DNA from: a virus
DNA length: 23,428 nucleotides
Strand: one strand, 5' to 3'
Virus record (IMG/VR): IMGVR_UViG_3300031524_000747
Coordinates: 1 to 23,428 of that record
Shown: piece by piece, positions 13,067 through 22,177 of the stretch
Numbering within the stretch: position 1 is the stretch's first letter
Layout: each line of letters begins with the position of its first letter
Notes under the pieces: model-generated
What the model was told of the DNA's origin: nothing
The model's input: only the letters and a program-made list of their open reading frames with translations
The model's database searches: none
Program-made: the position numbers and the translations under genes

Positions 13067-13579
13067 TTAGCGCTTGAAAAGTGGGGCGATCTTGTCCGCG
13101 TAGTGCTTCGCACGGGCGGCTGAGTCGGATACCGGGATGGAGTTGTACGCGTCCATGGCGGCGGAGAATTCGTCGGGCTGCTTGGTGGCGGCACCGGGGA
13201 TGCCAAGGACAACCGGATCAGCTCCGGAGGTCTTGATGGTCTCGAACTTTGCCTTCCAGTCCGCAGCCGAGGCTTCGGCGGCGGTGACCTTGCCGTTAAG
13301 CTCGACGATGGCTGTTTCGTGCGCCGTCTTGAGGCCGGCGATCTCGCCGTCCTTGGCCGCCAGGGCGGTCGTCAGCTCGCCAACCTTGGTCTCGTGGACC
13401 TTGGAGGCCTCAACCAGGCGGGCGTTCTCGGCGATCTCATCCTGACGCGCCAGCATCGTTTCGATGTCGGCGAGGCTAAGGTTCGCGGCAGCGGCGGGCT
13501 CTGCGGCGATTGCGACCGCGCGGGCCAAGCGGCCGGCATCGGAAGCGAACTTAGCGGAAATGTCCTTGAGGAGACTCAT
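13067..13579 (-). CDS. predicted internally started scaffold protein
   Basis: An in-frame ATG at codon 241 of the protease-scaffold gene would give a 170-aa protein, MSLLKDISAKFASDAGRLAR onward, consisting of the coiled coil and C-terminal tail only. The evidence is the GTTGACGC copy at 13593-13600, 13 bases upstream, matching the spacing at many gene starts here. The precedent is lambda, where Nu3 scaffold starts inside gene C. No Shine-Dalgarno is visible. Confidence 0.45.
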   Translation of the reverse strand: MSLLKDISAKFASDAGRLARAVAIAAEPAAAANLSLADIETMLARQDEIAENARLVEASKVHETKVGELTTALAAKDGEIAGLKTAHETAIVELNGKVTAAEASAADWKAKFETIKTSGADPVVLGIPGAATKQPDEFSAAMDAYNSIPVSDSAARAKHYADKIAPLFKR

Positions 13580-14299
13580 GTCATTGGACTGCGCGTCAAC
13601 GAAAGGGGCAGCAGCGGCCGAGACGGGGGTTGTGACAGCCGGGGTCTCAACCGCCGGCGTGGCCTTCTTGGGCATCTTCGCGAAGAGGACCTTGAGTTGG
13701 CCGGCGGCAAAGAGGCTGGACGTCGCCGCCCCCTCAGAGACCAGGGCGGCACCCGTGAGGTTCGTCACCCGGAAGCTCGGGATATCGCGGACGAAGTCGA
13801 TTGAGTCGGCCGCGGCGTCATCGATGTCGGCAGAGATTTCCTGTCCATCAGGCAGCACGAAGACCGTGTAGCCGTAGGCTTCGATCGAGAAATTGATCAG
13901 CGACGCATCGGTCGCAGCCATCTCCATGATCTTCGCGTAGTCCGATTCCGGGTCCGCCTTGTAGGCATCCCAGAAGATCAGGTCGGCCTTGAGGCAGTTA
14001 TCCTCAATTCGGCATTTCTCCAGGTAGCCAACCGAGTCCTCGAAACGGTCCATGCCGTTGCCGGCGATGTTGTCTATCATCGAAGGATGGTGCAGGTAGG
14101 CGAGAATCCGGCCGCTCGCGGGGAGGGAGGCCAGCGCGCTTTCGAGAGTGGCCGTGTCGATCCAAAGGCCGTGGCCAAGCGCCTCACGGTCGCCTTCCAT
14201 GAGGATGACGCCATTGATGCGACCGGCGGCGGAATCGACGCCAGCCTTCAGGGCCGAGGCGGAGAAATACACTTCACGAGCTGAGTTCGGTTTGATCAT
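13067..14299 (-). CDS. prohead protease fused to capsid scaffold
   Basis: This 410-aa protein joins two parts. Residues about 1-200 look like a phage prohead protease, with an AYLHHP segment (His70/71), the strand KADLIFWDAY and INFSIEAYGY, whose Ser138 would be the nucleophile of the His/Ser fold. A Pro/Ala/Thr linker (210-240) follows, then a long coiled coil (about 245-350) with AIVELNGKVTAAEASAADWK, as in scaffolds. The order portal, protease-scaffold, capsid matches lambda-like head clusters. An in-frame ATG at 13579 (Met241) has GTTGACGC 13 bases upstream, predicting a free 170-aa scaffold as in lambda C/Nu3. The start at 14299 avoids overlap with the portal gene. Catalytic residues are inferred. 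Confidence 0.75.
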   Translation of the reverse strand: MIKPNSAREVYFSASALKAGVDSAAGRINGVILMEGDREALGHGLWIDTATLESALASLPASGRILAYLHHPSMIDNIAGNGMDRFEDSVGYLEKCRIEDNCLKADLIFWDAYKADPESDYAKIMEMAATDASLINFSIEAYGYTVFVLPDGQEISADIDDAAADSIDFVRDIPSFRVTNLTGAALVSEGAATSSLFAAGQLKVLFAKMPKKATPAVETPAVTTPVSAAAAPFVDAQSNDMSLLKDISAKFASDAGRLARAVAIAAEPAAAANLSLADIETMLARQDEIAENARLVEASKVHETKVGELTTALAAKDGEIAGLKTAHETAIVELNGKVTAAEASAADWKAKFETIKTSGADPVVLGIPGAATKQPDEFSAAMDAYNSIPVSDSAARAKHYADKIAPLFKR

Positions 14300-14307
14300 G
14301 GCGGAAA

Positions 14308-15930
14308 TTATTTTGCGGGTGGAGGAGCGGGCGGAGTTGGGTCGCCTTCGATCTTGTTGGAGACGGCGGCGTCCTGAATCTCTTCGCCGTCCACCTGCTC
14401 CTTTGCGGCCACGAGTCCGTTGAACAGCCACACGAGCGGGACGATGATCTTCGAGGAGTCAGCCCCAGCCTCCAGCTGGCCTGAGAATTCAAGTCCGAGG
14501 ATGTAAGAAGCGCGGCGCTTGCTGAGTTCCTGGGAGAGGTCCTTGCCCTCTTTCTCAAGCTCGTCGGCGATCGAAGACAGGCCGCATGCGATGCGGGCGA
14601 GCGCAGCCTTGGCTTCCTTCTCTTCGTCGAGTACCGGCGTGCGGGACCAGCCCCACACGATGTTGTCTACGCGGCCACCGGGAGCGACTGCAAGGTCCCC
14701 TTCATTGATGGCCTTCGACGCGCGCCACAGCTGAAGCGGGTTGAGAAATGCCTGCTCAAACCACGCAGCGTGACGCTTGCGGCGGCCGTTCCACTGGACA
14801 CCCAGGCCCTTGAATCCCGAGTAGTTGACATCGCCGATTCCGGACCACCATAGCTCGACCGGCAGGCCGAGAGGCGTCGAGACGGTGTGCATCAGGAACA
14901 CCATGAACTTCTCGTGGTCCGCGGACTGGTACTGCGGACGCGAAAGCTCCATCTTCTCGCCCTCTTCGAGGGCGATCACCGTACCGTCGCGGAGCGCGAT
15001 CTGGGGGAGCTGGGCAGCCAGCTGTGCGGGAGACGCGCCATTTGCGACGCCGCCAGCTGCGGACGGGTTCGCGGGCATGTCGGTCGTCTCCGGACCGTTC
15101 TGAACGAAGCCGGGGCCGAGACCGGCGAAAGGCTGCGCCATGTTCTGAGGCGTCCGCGTGAGCCAGCCGAAAATCTGGTTCGCGTCCTTGATCTGCTTCG
15201 TCTTGGCCTGATGCAGTTCGTAGAGATCACGGAGACCGACGAGCGAAGCGATCAGCCACGGAATTCCGCGACCCAGGTGAACCCGGTCCTGCTTGAACAC
15301 GTGGTTGACGAAACGCGCGTCAACGATTTGGGGCGTGGCCTTCGGATCGATGAACCCGTTGCCGTCCGCCGCTTGAAAGTGGTACGTGACCGGCCGCCCC
15401 ATCGGGCTGTAGTCGATCTTGATGCAGTATTCCGACGGGACGAGCTGCACCTGCCCGCTCTTAAGGTAGACGACGAAAATCTCGCCGGCCAAGAGCATCT
15501 CCATCCACACGATCTCTTCCAACTCCCAGAGCGTGAGCCCGGTCGGCTCGCAATACTTCGCCCATTGCTTCCACCAGGCGTCCTTCGCCGTGTTGTACGC
15601 GGCATCCGGGCCGGTGGAGCGCAGATTGCTTGAACCGATCGCGGTCGAGAAATGTTCGATCAGCCCCTTGGCGAGCGGGTTGTTCCTCGCCTCGCGGCGA
15701 AGGCGCGAGAGCACCGTGGCGCGGGTCCACTGGTCGAAAAGGCGGTCGTCCGCATTCTCACACGCGGTCCAAAACCAGTCGCGGCGATGGTCGCTCCACG
15801 ACCCAGCATCGTAGTACGTTGTTCCCATGGAGAACGCGACAGAGCGCCCGGACGGCTCGCGAAGGATCACCGGGGCAGGAACTGTCACCGGGGCGACTGC
15901 AAGGGACCTGGGCTTTTTGCGGGCGGCCAT
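14308..15930 (-). CDS. portal protein, lambda gpB family
   Basis: This 540-aa protein has lambda-type portal features: TTYYDAGSWSDHRRDW near residue 38, LRREARNNPLAKGLIEHFST (about 75-95) followed by IGSSNLRSTG, then EIVWMEMLLAGEIFVVYL and VQLVPSEYCIKI (about 142-175). A central SRPQYQSADHEKFMVFLMHT segment precedes GLPVELWWSGIGDVNYSGFK. It forms the dodecameric ring through which DNA enters the head and to which the connector binds. It lies between the gpW-like gene and the protease-scaffold gene, as in lambda. Its start is one base after the stop of the gpW-like gene, so translation is probably coupled. The C-terminus is Pro-rich. Confidence 0.9.
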   Translation of the reverse strand: MAARKKPRSLAVAPVTVPAPVILREPSGRSVAFSMGTTYYDAGSWSDHRRDWFWTACENADDRLFDQWTRATVLSRLRREARNNPLAKGLIEHFSTAIGSSNLRSTGPDAAYNTAKDAWWKQWAKYCEPTGLTLWELEEIVWMEMLLAGEIFVVYLKSGQVQLVPSEYCIKIDYSPMGRPVTYHFQAADGNGFIDPKATPQIVDARFVNHVFKQDRVHLGRGIPWLIASLVGLRDLYELHQAKTKQIKDANQIFGWLTRTPQNMAQPFAGLGPGFVQNGPETTDMPANPSAAGGVANGASPAQLAAQLPQIALRDGTVIALEEGEKMELSRPQYQSADHEKFMVFLMHTVSTPLGLPVELWWSGIGDVNYSGFKGLGVQWNGRRKRHAAWFEQAFLNPLQLWRASKAINEGDLAVAPGGRVDNIVWGWSRTPVLDEEKEAKAALARIACGLSSIADELEKEGKDLSQELSKRRASYILGLEFSGQLEAGADSSKIIVPLVWLFNGLVAAKEQVDGEEIQDAAVSNKIEGDPTPPAPPPAK

Positions 15931-15931
15931 G

Positions 15932-16204
15932 TTAGTTTGAGAGTCGGGTTGTGCGGAACACAGCTGCGTTCACGCTGTCGGCGGTGCCGGCCAGCCGTGC
16001 CTCAAAGCTGCGGATCTGAACTTCGAGCCGCCCGGCGCGCTCGATAAGCCGGTCGTACTGGACCGAAGTGACTGAGACCCCGCCCATCGAAAACGAGGCA
16101 CCGTTCTTGTCCGACCGCATCAGCGCCTGACGGACACCAGCCAGCTCCGCGCGCAAACGCGTGAGGGCTTCGCCAATCGTTTCACTTCCAGTTGGAGTCG
16201 GCAT
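15932..16204 (-). CDS. gpW-like head-tail joining protein
   Basis: This 90-aa protein starts MPTPTGSETIGEALTRLRAE and has the gpW pattern: an N-terminal helix with LRAELAGVRQAL, a short loop with SFSMGGVSVTSVQYDRLIER and a second helix with RLEVQIRSFEARLAG. In lambda, gpW closes the portal and binds the tail connector, and its gene lies between terminase and portal, as here. The ATG at 16204 is chosen because ATTGACGC lies 14 bases upstream; the frame extending to 16438 encodes an implausible Arg/Ser-rich leader overlapping the 79-aa gene. Confidence 0.7.
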   Translation of the reverse strand: MPTPTGSETIGEALTRLRAELAGVRQALMRSDKNGASFSMGGVSVTSVQYDRLIERAGRLEVQIRSFEARLAGTADSVNAAVFRTTRLSN

Positions 16205-16232
16205 CGGAGAAGGCGCGGGCGTCAATGCCGCG

Positions 16233-16472
16233 TCATTTCGGCTCGGCGAACTTCTGGGCGACCTTGAGCGTCGCGGCTGCGCCGAACGCCGTCTCGCAGA
16301 ACGAGGCGATCGACGACGGGAATTCCTGGGGGGCATGCTTCGCAATTGAGAGCACCCCCCAGACGAGAAGCGGCAGAAGGATGCAGGCGACGAACGCGGC
16401 AAGCAGGATCGCGCGAGCCAGCGAGACCTCGCCGACATCCTCTTCGAGCAACTGAAGGACGAACTTCTTCAC
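16233..16472 (-). CDS. holin-like small membrane protein
   Basis: This 79-aa protein has one strong membrane segment at about residues 20-44 (ILLAAFVACILLPLLVWGVL) and a second, more amphipathic Ala-rich segment at about 54-72. The N-terminus is acidic (LLEEDVGEV). Size and topology resemble small holins, but it lies in the packaging cluster between SSB and the gpW-like gene, not in a lysis cassette. It starts with GTG at 16472, two bases after the SSB stop. Function is not proven. Confidence 0.55.
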   Translation of the reverse strand: MKKFVLQLLEEDVGEVSLARAILLAAFVACILLPLLVWGVLSIAKHAPQEFPSSIASFCETAFGAAATLKVAQKFAEPK

Positions 16473-16474
16473 GG

Positions 16475-16870
16475 TCAGAACGGAACGTCCTCAGATTCGA
16501 CGGCGGCCGGCGCGGCGCCCTCCCCTGCCGGCGCTTCCGCGCGGCCGAGAAACTGGAAGTTGTCCAAGACGACCTTTAGCTTGCTGCGCTTCTGGCCCGT
16601 GGCCTTGTCCTCCCACTGGTCGAACTTCAGGCGGCCTTCGATGAAGAGCTGTTTGCCCTTCGCGCAATACTTGGAGATCACCTCGGCGGTTTTGCCCCAG
16701 GCTTCGACATCGACGAAGCAAACCTCCTCGCGTTTCTCCCCGGTCGCGGTTTTGAACTCGCGGTTGACCGCGAGGCCAAATTGGCAAATCGCGGTGCCCT
16801 GCGGCGTGACGCGCATCTCGGGATCGCGAGTCAAGTTTCCGATCAGCATTACTTTATTCAGTGAGGACAT
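16475..16870 (-). CDS. ssb: single-stranded DNA-binding protein
   Basis: This 131-aa protein is a standard bacterial-type SSB: an OB fold starting MSSLNKVMLIGNLTRDPEMR, with CQFGLAVNREF, EVCFVDVEAWGKTAEVISKY and LFIEGRLKFDQWEDKATGQK. A short linker and the acidic tip ESEDVPF, which docks replication proteins, follow. It coats single-stranded DNA during phage replication or recombination. Its placement in the late packaging/head block is unusual. It overlaps the kinase gene by 13 bases. The sequence style recalls SSBs of the Planctomycetes/Verrucomicrobia group, a weak hint about the host. Confidence 0.95.
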   Translation of the reverse strand: MSSLNKVMLIGNLTRDPEMRVTPQGTAICQFGLAVNREFKTATGEKREEVCFVDVEAWGKTAEVISKYCAKGKQLFIEGRLKFDQWEDKATGQKRSKLKVVLDNFQFLGRAEAPAGEGAAPAAVESEDVPF

Positions 16871-17415
16871 GAGTGTGCAGTTGTGTTTTGAGAAAAAGGG
16901 AGCGAGGGCTTCGAACTACGCGCTTGCTGGTCAACGAACCGTTCGAGTTTTTTCCAGAGCGCCGACGGCTCGCCGTCGTTCACGATGATCCGGTCAGCGT
17001 CGTCCGGCGTGACCTCGGTGTTGTCTTTGTCCGGCTTTACGCAGCCTGGGCGAGATACCCAGACGATGACGTAGCGCTGCTTCGCTGCGTCCATCACATC
17101 GCAGAGCGCGTGAAGCTCCTCGGGCCGGCGAATGCCGCTGATGACCCGGCAGCCGTTGCTCCAGTGGAAATATGAGAGCGCGGCGGGGTTCACCCAGCAC
17201 AGCTCGTCGCCAACGTCGATGAGCGCCGGCCGGATCTGCTCTTTGGGGATTTTGCGTAGGCGCTCGACCGAGAGACCAAGACGCTTCGCAAGCACCTCAT
17301 AGACGATGTCGCTCGTTTCGCCGTGCTTCACACACGCGAGAGCCGCGCACATTTTCGCTGCCGTGGACTTCCCGCTACCCGGGAACCCAATGAAAAGGAA
17401 GGTCGGCGTGGACAT
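16858..17415 (-). CDS. P-loop nucleotide kinase, deoxynucleoside-monophosphate kinase-like
   Basis: This 185-aa protein has a Walker A motif GFPGSGKST at residues 10-18. Further on come DIVYEVLAKRLGLSVERLRK, VISGIRRPEELHAL (about 91-104), where the Arg pair may contact phosphate, and VIVWVSRP (about 117-124). The pattern and length fit the adenylate-kinase-like fold of phage dNMP kinases, which supply dNTP precursors. The C-terminal 25 residues overlap the SSB gene and look unstructured. GTTGACCC lies 15 bases before the ATG. Pairing with SSB suggests a DNA-synthesis pair inserted into the packaging operon. Substrate is not evident. Confidence 0.7.
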   Translation of the reverse strand: MSTPTFLFIGFPGSGKSTAAKMCAALACVKHGETSDIVYEVLAKRLGLSVERLRKIPKEQIRPALIDVGDELCWVNPAALSYFHWSNGCRVISGIRRPEELHALCDVMDAAKQRYVIVWVSRPGCVKPDKDNTEVTPDDADRIIVNDGEPSALWKKLERFVDQQARSSKPSLPFSQNTTAHSCPH

Positions 17416-17438
17416 TCACCCACGCCGGCGGGGTCAAC

Positions 17439-18203
17439 TCACTTCATCTTCATGCCGGCGTATTTGGCGACGATCTTCCCGATGTCGCCGGCCTTTGCCT
17501 TCGACATGGCGGTGAAGAAGCTCTTGGCGCGGCCGTTGAGCGCAACCGTCATAATCTGGCCGCCGTTAACGCCGCGCGCCGTGCCACCGAGAAGGTAAGG
17601 GTTGCTGACGATCATCGTGACACTTGGGCTCTGCCCTGTTTCACGGCGACCGTCCGACTGGTTGGCGTAGGTGTTGCCCTTGTAGTTCGCGCGCAGCGCG
17701 TACGCCGGGGCCTTCACGGCAATACGAAGAGCCCTTCCAGCCTCCACCCAAGACCGCTTTGCGAGGCCCCAGGCTTCGACATAGAGCTTCGAGAGTTCCG
17801 CCTGCCGCGACTCGCGCCACGCCTTACGTTCCTCCGCTAGCGCGAGCACCCGTGCCCAGGTCGAATCGACGAGCCTCCATTTTGACGTGAGAAAAGTCTT
17901 CCCGCCGATCTTGGCGAAAGCAGGGACGTTCTCGTCGAGCGGGAAACCCTTGGCATCGACAGGAACCTCAACGTGATCGCCCCAACCATAGGGGAATATC
18001 ACCGCCGCGCGCGCTGCGCTCTTTCGGGCTCGCTCCAATTTTTGAGCCTTCGAACTCTTAGGCGTAAGCGTGACGCATTTCGACAAAATGGCACCTGCCT
18101 GATCGTTCAGCACGTCATCGACTGACTTCCCCGGCTGCGCGGCAGCCATCGCTTTGATAAAGCGATCGAATCGGGACGAGTCGAAAGTGAGCTTGGGTGT
18201 CAC
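17439..18203 (-). CDS. unknown protein in the packaging/head cluster
   Basis: This 254-aa basic protein starts VTPKLTFDSSRFDRFIKAMA, has a short segment DVLNDQAGAILSKCVTLTPK and a Lys-rich helix. Its C-terminal half contains AYALRANYKGNTYANQ, IVSNPYLLGGTARGV and ends FFTAMSKAKAGDIGKIVAKY. The helix-then-strand layout is faintly like HK97 gp10-type tail completion proteins, but position and length do not match well, so I leave it unnamed. I choose the GTG at 18203: GGTGACGC lies 13 bases upstream and supplies the terminase stop codon. An ATG at 18151 is the alternative; the frame upstream runs far into terminase and is not coding. Confidence 0.55.
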   Translation of the reverse strand: MTPKLTFDSSRFDRFIKAMAAAQPGKSVDDVLNDQAGAILSKCVTLTPKSSKAQKLERARKSAARAAVIFPYGWGDHVEVPVDAKGFPLDENVPAFAKIGGKTFLTSKWRLVDSTWARVLALAEERKAWRESRQAELSKLYVEAWGLAKRSWVEAGRALRIAVKAPAYALRANYKGNTYANQSDGRRETGQSPSVTMIVSNPYLLGGTARGVNGGQIMTVALNGRAKSFFTAMSKAKAGDIGKIVAKYAGMKMK

Positions 18204-18219
18204 CCAAATAGGGCCGGCG

Positions 18220-20073
18220 TCACCCGATGGACCCGGCGATTCGGCTAGGCGTTGCGGCCTTTTTGACAGCACGGTCACGCGCCGTGGTGTGCGCCATTTG
18301 CAGGAACCGGAAGAGCGCAAGCGCGTAAACTTCACAGTCGAAAAAGTGGTTGTTCCCGGTGCGCTTTTTGAACTCACACGGCGGCTTTCCTTTGATGAGG
18401 CGCTTGCGTGGCACCCGGCGCTCGTCGAGGAGCTGCGTGAAGTATTCCGCCAGCTCCTTCGCCGACGAAGCGTCCCCCGGGGTCGCAGTATAGCACTTCC
18501 AGTTCTTGACCTCGCCCTTGAGCCGCTTCTCAAGCTCGACCTTGAATTCGTAGAGGCTGACGACGAGCTTCTGAACCATCGCGCCCAACGCTGCCTGTTT
18601 GCCGCCGGCAAAAGCGTTCGTCTGGACGAGCCTGAACCCGTCCTTCGTGGTATCGAACCCCTCAGCTAGAATCCAGCCGACATGGGCGCGACGGTAGGTC
18701 TGTTCCATCTGCTCAGCCCTGCGCTCTTCAAAGTTGGAATCACCGATCACGAAATTTGCCGTGTAAGTTTTCTGCGTTGCGTCGAGGTCCGCCCACCCGG
18801 CCGCCACGCCGTGGTCGAGCAAGTAGCACGTCCCGTCCCAGCTGAACACCCGGACGATCCACGGAAGGCCCCAGGTCTGCACGTCATAGGAGAGAAGCGT
18901 GACATCCGGCTTGAAGCCCTCGGGCGGAAATCCGCGCGAGTATTTTTCGCAAAGATGAGCAAGCTTTTCGAGCGTCAGACTTGCGATCTCATCGACCCAG
19001 GGGAGGCCCATACGTGAGTTCCAAAAGTCTTGGCGGTCCGCGATCCACCCGGACGAGCGCGAGGCGATAAAGGCCGTGACCATCTCGCCCATTGAGTTTT
19101 CGCGCCACGGCCCAGCGAGGCCGCAAAGCTGATAGGACCGGACGCCGGGGAGTTTGGGCGATGCGCTCGCCAGCCAAAATCCCAGACGCTTAACGGCGTC
19201 CAGTTCGGCCTGGGTGTGAGCGTGCAGACAGTGGGGGCAAACGTAGCGAGCCGAGGCCGCAGCCGCTTCGATGATCCACTCGCCGTCCTCGTCGCGGGCC
19301 GACTGATCCCATTTGACGTGGTCGAACGCCATCGCGTGCGTCCCTCCGCAGGCAGCGCAACCGATGTGCCACTTGCGCTGATCTCCCTTGAGGAACCAGA
19401 TCCAAATTTGGCCATGCTCCGTCGTCGGCGTTGAGACGAAAAAATGCTTTCGCTCGCCCTCGAACGAGCCGGTCCTGTGCCGGACAAGGTCCACAACCCC
19501 GGCCTCTTTGTCCGTTGCGCCCAGCCACTTGTCTACCTCGTTGCCCCACACCCGGGCGACCGTCTTGCCGGCCACGTTGCCGGGCGAGTTTGCCCCGGTG
19601 AGGTACAACGACGCACCGGGGAAGAGCATCTTGAGATTCCCAAATTTGTGCCGATCACGCGGCTTCCTGTCGCGCAGCGCAGCGTTGAAATTTATGACCG
19701 GCTGAAGCTCCGTTTCCGAGACGGCGCGCGCGTTGTCCACCGTGTCGTTTACCCATATCGCCGGAGCTGGATCGCCGGCCACGCCAAACAGGGCGCCGGC
19801 CCGCAACATGAGCGTCTTGCCCGTTCGGGTCGGAGCGACGAGCACACAGTCCTGCACGCTCGGGTCGTCGAGGGCGTCTAGCGGCTCGCGCAAATAGGGC
19901 GTCTCGTCGAAGCAAATACGGCCGGGTTTCGACTCGTGCCCCGGGGGCAGGAAAAGAAACTTCTCAACCCACTGCGAGGGACTCAGCCGTTCCCGTGGAC
20001 TGAAGATATCGGCGAGAGCCGCCTTGAAGCGTGCTGCCGCCGTAGTGCCAGCGCGGTTACAGCTGGGCATCAT
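18220..20073 (-). CDS. terminase large subunit, lambda gpA family
   Basis: This 617-aa packaging ATPase-nuclease belongs to the lambda gpA type. Walker A is APTRTGKT (residues 80-87). The Walker B-like strand VARVWGNEVD (172-181) has Asn where Asp is usual. A FVSTPTT coupling segment follows at about 212. Cys pairs CAAC and CPHC (about 239-282) form a zinc knuckle. The nuclease domain has SYDVQTWG (Asp397), IGDSNFE (Asp445) and HFFDCEVYALAL (Asp579). It cuts concatemers and drives DNA into the portal. A GGAGG 9 bases before 20073 sets the start, overlapping the small-subunit gene by 17 bases; a start at 20142 would add 23 basic residues. Confidence 0.92.
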   Translation of the reverse strand: MMPSCNRAGTTAAARFKAALADIFSPRERLSPSQWVEKFLFLPPGHESKPGRICFDETPYLREPLDALDDPSVQDCVLVAPTRTGKTLMLRAGALFGVAGDPAPAIWVNDTVDNARAVSETELQPVINFNAALRDRKPRDRHKFGNLKMLFPGASLYLTGANSPGNVAGKTVARVWGNEVDKWLGATDKEAGVVDLVRHRTGSFEGERKHFFVSTPTTEHGQIWIWFLKGDQRKWHIGCAACGGTHAMAFDHVKWDQSARDEDGEWIIEAAAASARYVCPHCLHAHTQAELDAVKRLGFWLASASPKLPGVRSYQLCGLAGPWRENSMGEMVTAFIASRSSGWIADRQDFWNSRMGLPWVDEIASLTLEKLAHLCEKYSRGFPPEGFKPDVTLLSYDVQTWGLPWIVRVFSWDGTCYLLDHGVAAGWADLDATQKTYTANFVIGDSNFEERRAEQMEQTYRRAHVGWILAEGFDTTKDGFRLVQTNAFAGGKQAALGAMVQKLVVSLYEFKVELEKRLKGEVKNWKCYTATPGDASSAKELAEYFTQLLDERRVPRKRLIKGKPPCEFKKRTGNNHFFDCEVYALALFRFLQMAHTTARDRAVKKAATPSRIAGSIG

Positions 20074-20851
20074 CGGTCGGTCCCTCCGCTTCGGTTTCCG
20101 CTTGGGTTTCCGGCTTCTCAACAGATTCTTTCGGCTCGCCATGCGATAGCGCCTGAGCCGTGCGCGAATCTGCCGACTCTATCTCGGCCATCAGCAAATC
20201 CACCTCGCGATCAATCGCGGCCTTCGCGGCGGCAGGATCAGCCGGGTTCGCATTCGAGGCGGCGCGCTCGCCGAGCTTCACGATCCGGCGCCGAAGAGAC
20301 CCGAGCAACACCGACACGGCCTCAAGGGCGTCGTCGAGCGAGAGCAATTCGCGGCGCTCTAATTGCGACTTAGTGAATCGATCGCGCAGGCTTGCGACTT
20401 CGCGCATAGCAGCGCCCCAATTCTTTACGCTGACAGCGGCCATCATTGGGGAACGCAGGGACGCGCGGACCTCGCGGTTGGCAATGGCCGCCACGTCCTC
20501 CGCTTCGAGCACCATTCGCGTCTCGAAATCGCCCTCGAAGACGGGCGGTTTCTCCTCTGTAGAGGCCCCCAGGGGGGTGGCCCCCCGGGGGGTAGGCGGC
20601 AAGGGCTCCGGCCCGGGCTGGTCTGAAGTGGTCGGCGGGGGCGACTTGATGTCGCATTTTGCGACCTCAAGTTTGCAATCCGCTAAATCAGCGGCCTTTA
20701 CGTGAGTTCTGGCCGGTACGTTGGCAACGCGCCACGCCTGGGCCTCGTCGGCGTTCGCGAATTGGGTCGGCTGGACGCCCCTCCGCTTCAGCGTGCTCGC
20801 TGCCGTTTGCTTGGTAACACCCCAAGCTTTTGCGATTCCAGAAAGCGTCAT
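20057..20851 (-). CDS. terminase small subunit, Nu1-like
   Basis: This 264-aa protein begins with a helix-turn-helix, MTLSGIAKAWGVTKQTAAST then LKRRGV, as in Nu1-type DNA-recognition subunits. A Pro-rich linker (about 70-100) is followed by a helical region (110-235) with VSVKNWGAAMREVASLRDRF for oligomerisation, and an acidic tail (PTDDAQL) that may bind the large subunit. It should pick the packaging site on phage DNA. The four CTGAC repeats directly upstream of its start are the natural candidate site. The linker coding DNA contains two G/C palindromes at 20566-20593. The ATG at 20851 has GCTGACGG 12 bases upstream and no clear Shine-Dalgarno. Confidence 0.8.
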   Translation of the reverse strand: MTLSGIAKAWGVTKQTAASTLKRRGVQPTQFANADEAQAWRVANVPARTHVKAADLADCKLEVAKCDIKSPPPTTSDQPGPEPLPPTPRGATPLGASTEEKPPVFEGDFETRMVLEAEDVAAIANREVRASLRSPMMAAVSVKNWGAAMREVASLRDRFTKSQLERRELLSLDDALEAVSVLLGSLRRRIVKLGERAASNANPADPAAAKAAIDREVDLLMAEIESADSRTAQALSHGEPKESVEKPETQAETEAEGPTDDAQL

Positions 20852-20863
20852 ACTGACGCCGCA

Positions 20864-20907
20864 CCGTCAGCCGGACTGTCAGCCCACCCGTCAGCTTAAT
20901 CGTCAGG
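20864..20907 (-). repeat. four CTGAC repeats at exact 12-bp spacing before the small terminase gene
   Basis: On the plus strand GTCAG occurs at 20866, 20878, 20890 and 20902, each exactly 12 bp apart. On the transcribed strand this reads CTGAC four times, mostly CTGACG. Inverted copies (CTGAC on the plus strand) flank the array at 20853-20857 and 20908-20912. The array ends 12 bases before the small terminase start. Lambda keeps its cosB R sites just upstream of Nu1, so a terminase-binding packaging site is the leading reading. An operator is the alternative. Confidence 0.65.
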
Positions 20908-21091
20908 CTGACTTTCATTAGTTTTAAGGGGCGTCGCGGGATACCTCGTGACCAAAAATAGGGCCGGAAAGGACCCGTTCACACACGGCCTCGGCTGCCG
21001 GCCAGGCAAAGGGTCAGCTCGCGCGACCAGAACAGAGTTAAACCACCGAACGGGAACGACCTAGACGGGGTAATGAGGGTCGAGGGTCAAC

Positions 21092-21183
21092 CCCGTTCCC
21101 CCAGCACCCCGTGCTCTATATAGCATTGGAAAACACCGGCGTTTTTCTATAGATAGTAGAGCACGGGGTGCTGGGGGAACGGG
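21092..21183. repeat. 27-bp perfect inverted repeat with nested hairpin
   Basis: The arm at 21092-21118 (CCCGTTCCCCCAGCACCCCG and seven more bases) is perfectly complementary to 21157-21183, separated by 38 bases. The spacer is AT-rich at its edges (TATATAG, CTATAG) and holds an inner stem, GGAAAAC at 21128-21134 with GTTTTTC at 21141-21147 (one G-T pair). Possible roles are a strong bidirectional terminator between the divergent blocks, a replication origin element or a packaging/recombination site. I recognise no insertion-sequence ends or transposase. Confidence 0.75.
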
Positions 21184-21473
21184 AAGCGACTTTCGCCCAA
21201 TTCCTCCCCGTCTTGGCCGTCATTCCTTCCGAACTTCGTGGCCCGGAATCGATCCGATCTGGCCGGCTCAGGCCGCCGTCTGACGGCCCAGGTCAGCCGT
21301 CGGCGCGGCCAATGGCCGTGACCGATACTCGATGGGCTTCAAGCGCGCCGCATTAACAACCCTACTGACCTTGCGGCATCGCTTTGTTTTGGGTGTACAA
21401 CTCAATAGAGCGGGACGATGCTGTCGGCACTCGCAGCGCGTAACGCTTCAATCACAACTGTTTTCCTAAGGCC

Positions 21474-21662
21474 ATGACCGCGCCACAGAAGAACCGGAAC
21501 GCAGCCAAGCCGGACTACAAACGGGCAACTGAGAAGCTGATCGTCCGTGTAACCGTCGCAGAGAAGGCCCGCTTTGCCCTAGCAGCTGCCGTGGCGGGCC
21601 AGAATCTAAGCAAATGGTGTCGGGCGCAGCTGGACGCAGCCTCTACCCGCCACACCCCATAA
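21474..21662 (+). CDS. ribbon-helix-helix DNA-binding protein
   Basis: This 62-aa protein has a basic N-terminus (MTAPQKNRNAAKPDYKRATE) followed by a strand KLIVRVTV, then EKARFALAAAVAGQNLSKWC and a closing helix RAQLDAAS. That is the Arc/MobC-type ribbon-helix-helix pattern. Such proteins bind DNA as dimers and repress their own operon or control early phage genes. It is the first rightward gene after the control region, which suits a regulator acting on the repeats there. TAAGG lies about 4 bases before the ATG, a short-spaced Shine-Dalgarno. Confidence 0.65.
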   Translation: MTAPQKNRNAAKPDYKRATEKLIVRVTVAEKARFALAAAVAGQNLSKWCRAQLDAASTRHTP

Positions 21663-21706
21663 TTTCAAGCAGGCGCACCTCGCGCCGTCACCAACACGAA
21701 ATCACC

Positions 21707-22177
21707 ATGACATCTGGACAATACTCGCAGGCGATCATCGCCGCTCTTGAACTCAACGGGGTTAAACCCGTCGCAACGCACACGGCCGCCCCGGGGCCGG
21801 ATGCTGGACGCGTTGAGGCGTTCCTCATCGGGCCGGGGCAGTATGCCATCCGGTTTCGCGTCGGCTCCGCTACCCGGCACGCTACCGATGACAACATAGA
21901 CGACCTCGCCGGCTGGATCGTGACCACGGACGATCCCGTGGACGTGGCCAACATGCGCGACGCAAACCCTGTCGAGGTGCCGAGCCACTTCGCCAGCGCC
22001 GTCAGGATCATCTGCCTGAGCGCGGCGGCCTTCCGGTCGAGCTTCGCATGGGTCGCAACGTCTGCCGGCGAGCCGTGCCACTTCCCATCGGTCTTTGCTG
22101 CGCGTGCGTGGATTCGCGGCGCGTGCATGCTAGACTCGGGCTCCCGGTCGTATTTTGTCGTCCCGGCTGAGTCATGA
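21707..22177 (+). CDS. unknown early-region protein
   Basis: This 156-aa protein starts MTSGQYSQAIIAALELNGVK. An N-terminal region (to about 90) carries beta strands such as RVEAFLIGPGQYAIRFRVGS, and an Ala-rich C-terminal part follows with two Cys. I recognise no family. The start context AAATCACCATGA, without Shine-Dalgarno, is repeated exactly at the gene starting at 22723. It overlaps the next gene by four bases (ATGA), so the two are probably co-translated. I choose 21707 over the frame start at 21614, which would overlap the end of the ribbon-helix-helix gene. Confidence 0.5.
   Translation: MTSGQYSQAIIAALELNGVKPVATHTAAPGPDAGRVEAFLIGPGQYAIRFRVGSATRHATDDNIDDLAGWIVTTDDPVDVANMRDANPVEVPSHFASAVRIICLSAAAFRSSFAWVATSAGEPCHFPSVFAARAWIRGACMLDSGSRSYFVVPAES

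Follow-up and report, generated by a model that had tools for sequence, protein, structure and literature searches.

We identified a 92-bp element with perfectly paired arms next to a putative lambda-like cos site in the virus record IMGVR_UViG_3300031524_000747 (positions 1 to 23,428, hereafter the window), and we suggest, at a probability of roughly 0.5, that this inverted repeat (IR), situated just beyond cos, serves as the stem-loop of a replication origin or as the core of such a stem-loop to which an initiator binds. A replication start was one of the functions proposed in the first-pass annotation, and it is supported by the position of the element and by the IRs that occupy the same place in related phages, several of them behind a D5-like helicase gene.

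Structure and authenticity of the inverted repeat

The perfect 27-bp IR described earlier was confirmed in its coordinates, in its pairing (27/27 bp) and in its 38-base spacer (21092-21183; Table 1), and it is by far the longest IR of the window. The description of the repeat as far beyond chance also held: the longest perfect IR measured only 0-12 bp when the window was resampled six times under a first-order Markov model, and the region folded far more stably than expected, with z-scores of approximately -12 on both strands for DNA compared with shuffles and of -11.2 (+ strand) and -7.8 (- strand) for RNA. The RNA fold energy was -87 kcal/mol on the + strand versus -79 kcal/mol on the - strand, and extra G-U pairs lengthen the + strand stem beyond 27 bp. 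The inner hairpin that had been reported within the IR does exist, although it is weak, consisting of 6-7 pairs, one of which is G-U/G-T, and a 6-nt loop (+ strand). The nesting of an AGCAC-N3-GTGCT dyad inside each arm is stronger; this dyad has no other copy in the window (P = 0.02 versus shuffled arms). The spacer has a GC content of 37% versus 62% for the window, which places it in the lowest 0.2% of the window's 38-nt stretches, and as a whole it forms no palindrome. Additional GAACGGG words occur near the IR, and a search of the region against Rfam gave no match.

One question is whether the element could be an artifact of assembly, the possibility under which the first-pass annotation would have withdrawn it. 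This is unlikely because a second contig, IMGVR_UViG_3300029955_000821, from a different metagenome record, is 100% identical to window positions 13223-21805 and carries the whole 92 bp letter for letter; a third identical contig stops at window position 20901, short of the IR. The near-identical contigs (L003, L004, L010 and L025, corresponding to 3300029955_000821, and L005 and L011, corresponding to 3300029915_000583) displayed zero variation, and the IR sequences of the distant relatives are unrelated to that of the window. Among 2.9 million viral contigs, no other phage carries a 26-mer of the IR. Four further sequences (L030-L033) have 17 bp of an arm in common with it and were rejected as chance cases, the match being embedded in unrelated sequence. 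Nothing related to the window turned up among known phage genomes at the nucleotide level.

At the left end of the window, a tRNA gene with the anticodon CAT is represented by its 3' half (84-128, - strand), probably an attachment (integration) site, and an excisionase-like gene (308-529) lies nearby. One genome of the Cerasicoccus phylum contained an intact tRNA that shares this 3' half with 2 mismatches, the single match in 340 genomes searched (195 of the Cerasicoccus phylum and 145 of the Omnitrophota phylum), which is too little to name a host. Because of the tRNA half and the excisionase-like gene at its left end, together with the intact tRNA found elsewhere, the window appears to be part of a temperate phage or prophage.

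Neighboring genes and the putative cos site

The IR lies between divergent gene blocks, as the first reading of the sequence had indicated. To its left, the - strand carries a late operon of terS, terL, portal, head protein and tail genes, and to its right lead the + strand ORFs. Homologs of terS were found in all six other records searched and were 30-36% identical in the four distant ones among them. The first product of the divergent operon may be a ribbon-helix-helix protein, to judge from a very weak sequence match; structure prediction returned a single long helix at low confidence. The + strand ORFs leading away from the IR gave no replication match and no useful matches, and searches with their proteins found no relatives outside this phage. 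No sigma-70-like promoters were found at 20800-21720, and the GC skew does not turn at the IR.

Table 1 Features of the window around the inverted repeat
Feature	Position	Strand	Basis
Terminase large subunit (terL), lambda gpA type	18220..20142	-	PF05876, PHROG 15
Terminase small subunit (terS)	20057..20851	-	Weak PHROG 141 match
Repeated GCTGAC/GTCAGC words between cosN and terS, at the place of lambda cosB	20860..20912	-	Read from sequence
Predicted cosN; nick ~20948/20947	20930..20948	-	Lambda spacing from cosQ, inferred by alignment
cosQ-like motif GGGTCCTTTCCG	20965..20976	-	Letters as in the lambda cosQ region
IR left arm	21092..21118	+	Perfect 27-bp pairing
Dyad AGCAC-CCC-GTGCT, left arm; possible protein-binding site	21103..21115		
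Spacer, 38 nt, AT-rich; TATATAG / CTATAGATAG adjoining the arms	21119..21156		GC content
IR right arm	21157..21183	+	Perfect 27-bp pairing
Dyad AGCAC-GGG-GTGCT, right arm	21160..21172		
First ORF of the divergent operon, 62 aa	21474..21662	+	Very weak NikA-like match, E 6e-4, under the Pfam cut-off

Between the IR and terS lies a lambda-like cos motif with cosQ at 20976. Upstream of terS, the window reads GGGTCCTTTCCGG, identical to the right end of lambda; the spacing to the predicted cut is likewise that of lambda. At the place of cosQ, seven of the eight relatives compared have GGGTCCTT and the remaining one (L006) has GGGTCCTCC; 28-29 bp further, most of them have GGTTCCGC, which corresponds to the lambda distance between cosQ and the cut. 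The window has GGTATCCCGCG where the relatives have GGTTCCGC, and its cosN is less clear. The presence of a cosQ-like motif beside terS, at the right spacing from the predicted cosN, points to a putative cos site of the lambda type. The repeated GCTGAC/GTCAGC words are probably TerS-binding sites; in several relatives, GGTTAA words stand in their place. A ninth relative (L026), a contig of an Omnitrophota metagenome-assembled genome (MAG), starts exactly at GGTTCCGCG (positions 1-12), the predicted cohesive end, which suggests that the contig start is a binned virion genome end and not host DNA. The GGGTCC motif also occurs in uncultivated phages and in prophages that are remote from lambda, one of them in Cerasicoccus arenae (L027).

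The IR is located 116 bp from cosQ and ~145 bp from the point where the right end of the virion DNA is predicted and is therefore not cos itself. In contrast to the window, no IR adjoins cosQ in the ~100 bp of the lambda right end that were read. The replication origin of lambda is located elsewhere than cos.

Possible counterparts in related phages, and known origin systems

Relatives were found through TerL and are distant (40-46% identity); eight of them (L006, L007, L008, L009, L016, L018, L027 and the prophage G221) entered the IR comparison, in which stretches of 17-38 kb were examined for their best IR. In the window and in L006-L009 and G221, the top-scoring IR of the whole stretch lies beyond cosQ on the side away from terS, at a distance of 125-527 bp in these relatives; the window's best IR falls within the ~700 bp next to cosQ. 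The probability that five of eight relatives have their best IR there by chance is P ~7e-6, a value from a small set and from a test designed after the first cases had been seen. L016 and L018 have only a weaker IR at the cos-adjacent place, and in L027 none scores there. The closest counterpart in spacing and size is G221, whose element measures 86 bp and lies 125 bp from cosQ. The gpA-type phages AcaML1, Rostov 7 and ep3 have no such cosQ motif and no comparable IR near the terminase genes.

In four of the five relatives with a top-scoring IR at this place, the IR either overlaps the stop of a helicase-type gene or begins no more than 15 bp from it: the IR begins 2-12 bp past the stop of the gene at the helicase position in L006, L007 and L009, and overlaps or follows that stop in L008. 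Proteins matching DUF5906 (a D5-like helicase domain, SF3-type) were found in L006 (just under the Pfam cut-off), L008, L009 and L027, the gene being situated in front of the IR in the first three and further upstream in L027. The arms of most relatives consist of tandem repeats such as GCGACGGTT, CGGACAGCA and TTGTGACAGC, and direct repeats within the arms were significant (P of 0.03 or less) in L006, L007, L008, L009, G221 and Bordetella phage BPP-1; L016 and L018 are without them. Alternating purine-pyrimidine tracts (CGCGCG, TGTGTG) occupy the centers of the iteron repeats in L006 (3560-3600), L008 (3090-3125) and L009 (3140-3180) and are absent from the window spacer. By analogy with known origin systems, the IRs of the relatives may be replication origins.

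Known origin systems offer several points of comparison. Replication of the Sulfolobus plasmid pRN1 requires a stem-loop of 100 bp located 3' of the SF3 helicase-primase gene, with a 21-nt stem, a 58-nt loop and no iterons; an origin of this type has also been proposed for Bordetella phage BIP-1, with genetic proof for pRN1 only (PMC4234260). The initiator helicases of SaPI and SCCmec bind repeats immediately downstream of their own gene (PMC7581432), and the P4 origin contains repeats bound by the alpha protein (PMC4234260). The window element has the pRN1 shape, that is, a single stem-loop of ~100 bp (92 bp) with a perfect stem longer than 20 bp (27 bp), a large loop (38 nt) and no iterons beyond chance (P = 0.77), and, as in the pRN1 family, the sequence is not conserved between relatives. 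Unlike the pRN1 origin, which follows its SF3 helicase-primase gene, the window IR adjoins terS and small + strand ORFs. The iteron origins of SaPI and P4 are resembled more closely by the elements of L006-L009 and G221, with repeat arms mirrored around a center and the same place relative to cos; the layout of the relatives, with the IR directly behind a helicase-type gene, is that of SaPI and is also similar to that of the pRN1 stem-loop origin. The window shares with these origins an AT-rich segment between the repeat sets but differs from them in having neither tandem iterons nor an adjacent initiator gene.

BPP-1, whose replication protein belongs to the P4 primase family, has, between its primase and terminase genes, an iteron IR whose outer arms are perfect over 22 bp. 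This order of primase, IR and terminase genes is a likeness to the window group, whereas the arms differ from those of the window in consisting of tandem GCCTCGTTT repeats. The stem-loop described in the literature behind the primase gene of BIP-1 is not exceptional in BPP-1 (DNA folding z of 0.3). The strong IR of BPP-1 (L054:2608-2711, equal to 26607-26710 of the BPP-1 record) is located ~470 bp from the primase gene and that stem-loop, and it may be the better origin candidate.

An origin model and alternative readings

The window IR resembles these origin-like elements in position, in its AT-rich center and in size (92 bp, compared with 86 bp for G221 and ~100 bp for pRN1) and is most simply read as their functional counterpart. 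A mechanism can be proposed, each step of which we infer: the mirrored arms would be the binding sites of an initiator, probably a phage helicase/primase whose gene lies beyond this fragment, and melting of the AT-rich spacer, either directly or through cruciform extrusion, would create the place at which replication is primed. Several facts speak against an origin. The arms are free of iterons, unlike those of most relatives, and carry nested dyads instead; the IR has no replication gene beside it, and the fragment lacks the remainder of the genome; the GC skew is without a turn at this place; and three of the eight relatives (L016, L018 and L027) have their best IR elsewhere. Owing to the lack of iterons and of an adjacent helicase gene, we grade the origin reading no higher than the value given above and do not file the element in a known origin family.

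The main rival, favored by the nested dyads, is regulatory: the element would control the divergent region as a pair of operators or a site of looping, and a regulator, perhaps the 62-aa protein, would occupy both dyads and switch between the early + strand and late - strand operons. We regard this reading as possible but tentative. It fits the uniqueness of the dyads in the window, their location between early-like and late genes, in the intergenic stretch from which the two operons diverge, the GAACGGG words around the IR and the weak match of the first divergent gene to a family of DNA-binding mobilization proteins. However, an operator pair does not need 27 bp of perfectly mirrored sequence, the surrounding region lacks a sigma-70-like promoter, the ribbon-helix-helix match is below threshold and unconfirmed by structure prediction, and the IR is also there in relatives without a divergent operon. 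A role at the RNA level, as a + strand leader or small RNA with a ~40-pair hairpin (including G-U pairs in the outer stem) acting in antitermination, processing or stability, would account for the better fold of the + strand through its G-U extension; it is unlikely, since such pairs are few, Rfam holds nothing similar and no promoter lies upstream.

The other two functions listed in the first-pass annotation fared less well. An intrinsic terminator, possibly bidirectional, would suit a very stable GC-rich intergenic hairpin, but the stem is followed by no T-run on either strand, the IR is absent from the terminator scan and neither strand of the window has a gene running into it; we consider termination improbable. 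Slightly more doubtful still is an extended packaging signal or virion end, that is, a cos accessory element: the proximity to the predicted nick (~145 bp) would agree with it, but the spacing from cos is variable among relatives (116 to 720 bp), and lambda has nothing similar in the part of its right end that was read. Site-specific recombination is disfavored because the integration site is recognizable elsewhere, at the tRNA-CAT 3' half. More generally, a mobile or recombination element (MITE, attachment site or telomere) or an assembly artifact is the least probable reading of all; perfect arms could stem from a recent duplication, but among the 2.9 million viral contigs the 26-mer is confined to this phage, no target-site duplication was seen, the same sequence recurs in a second contig and the spacer is not palindromic as a whole. 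The earlier rejection of an N15-type telomere was sound, as a protelomerase site is a palindrome without a long asymmetric spacer and the spacer here measures 38 nt.

Returning to the replication origin, origins formed by stem-loops or iterons behind helicase genes have been described before; possible novelties are that the IR consistently lies beside cos in a little-known phage group and that, in the window, a stem-loop free of iterons stands apart from an initiator gene. More speculatively, this family of cos-type phages might place a fast-changing IR origin beside the packaging cut, and in the lineage of the window a long iteron-free stem-loop might have replaced the iteron origin and become uncoupled from the initiator gene, so that structure, and not repeated binding words, would mark the origin. 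Experimental knowledge of stem-loop origins of the pRN1 kind comes from very few elements. If the origin reading is true, the origins of uncultivated cos phages could be found as the strongest IR just past cosQ, and the question would arise of whether initiation beside the packaging cut helps to couple replication to packaging. The late operon of the window also contains, between terL and portal (16475-17415), genes for a single-strand binding protein and a deoxynucleoside monophosphate kinase.
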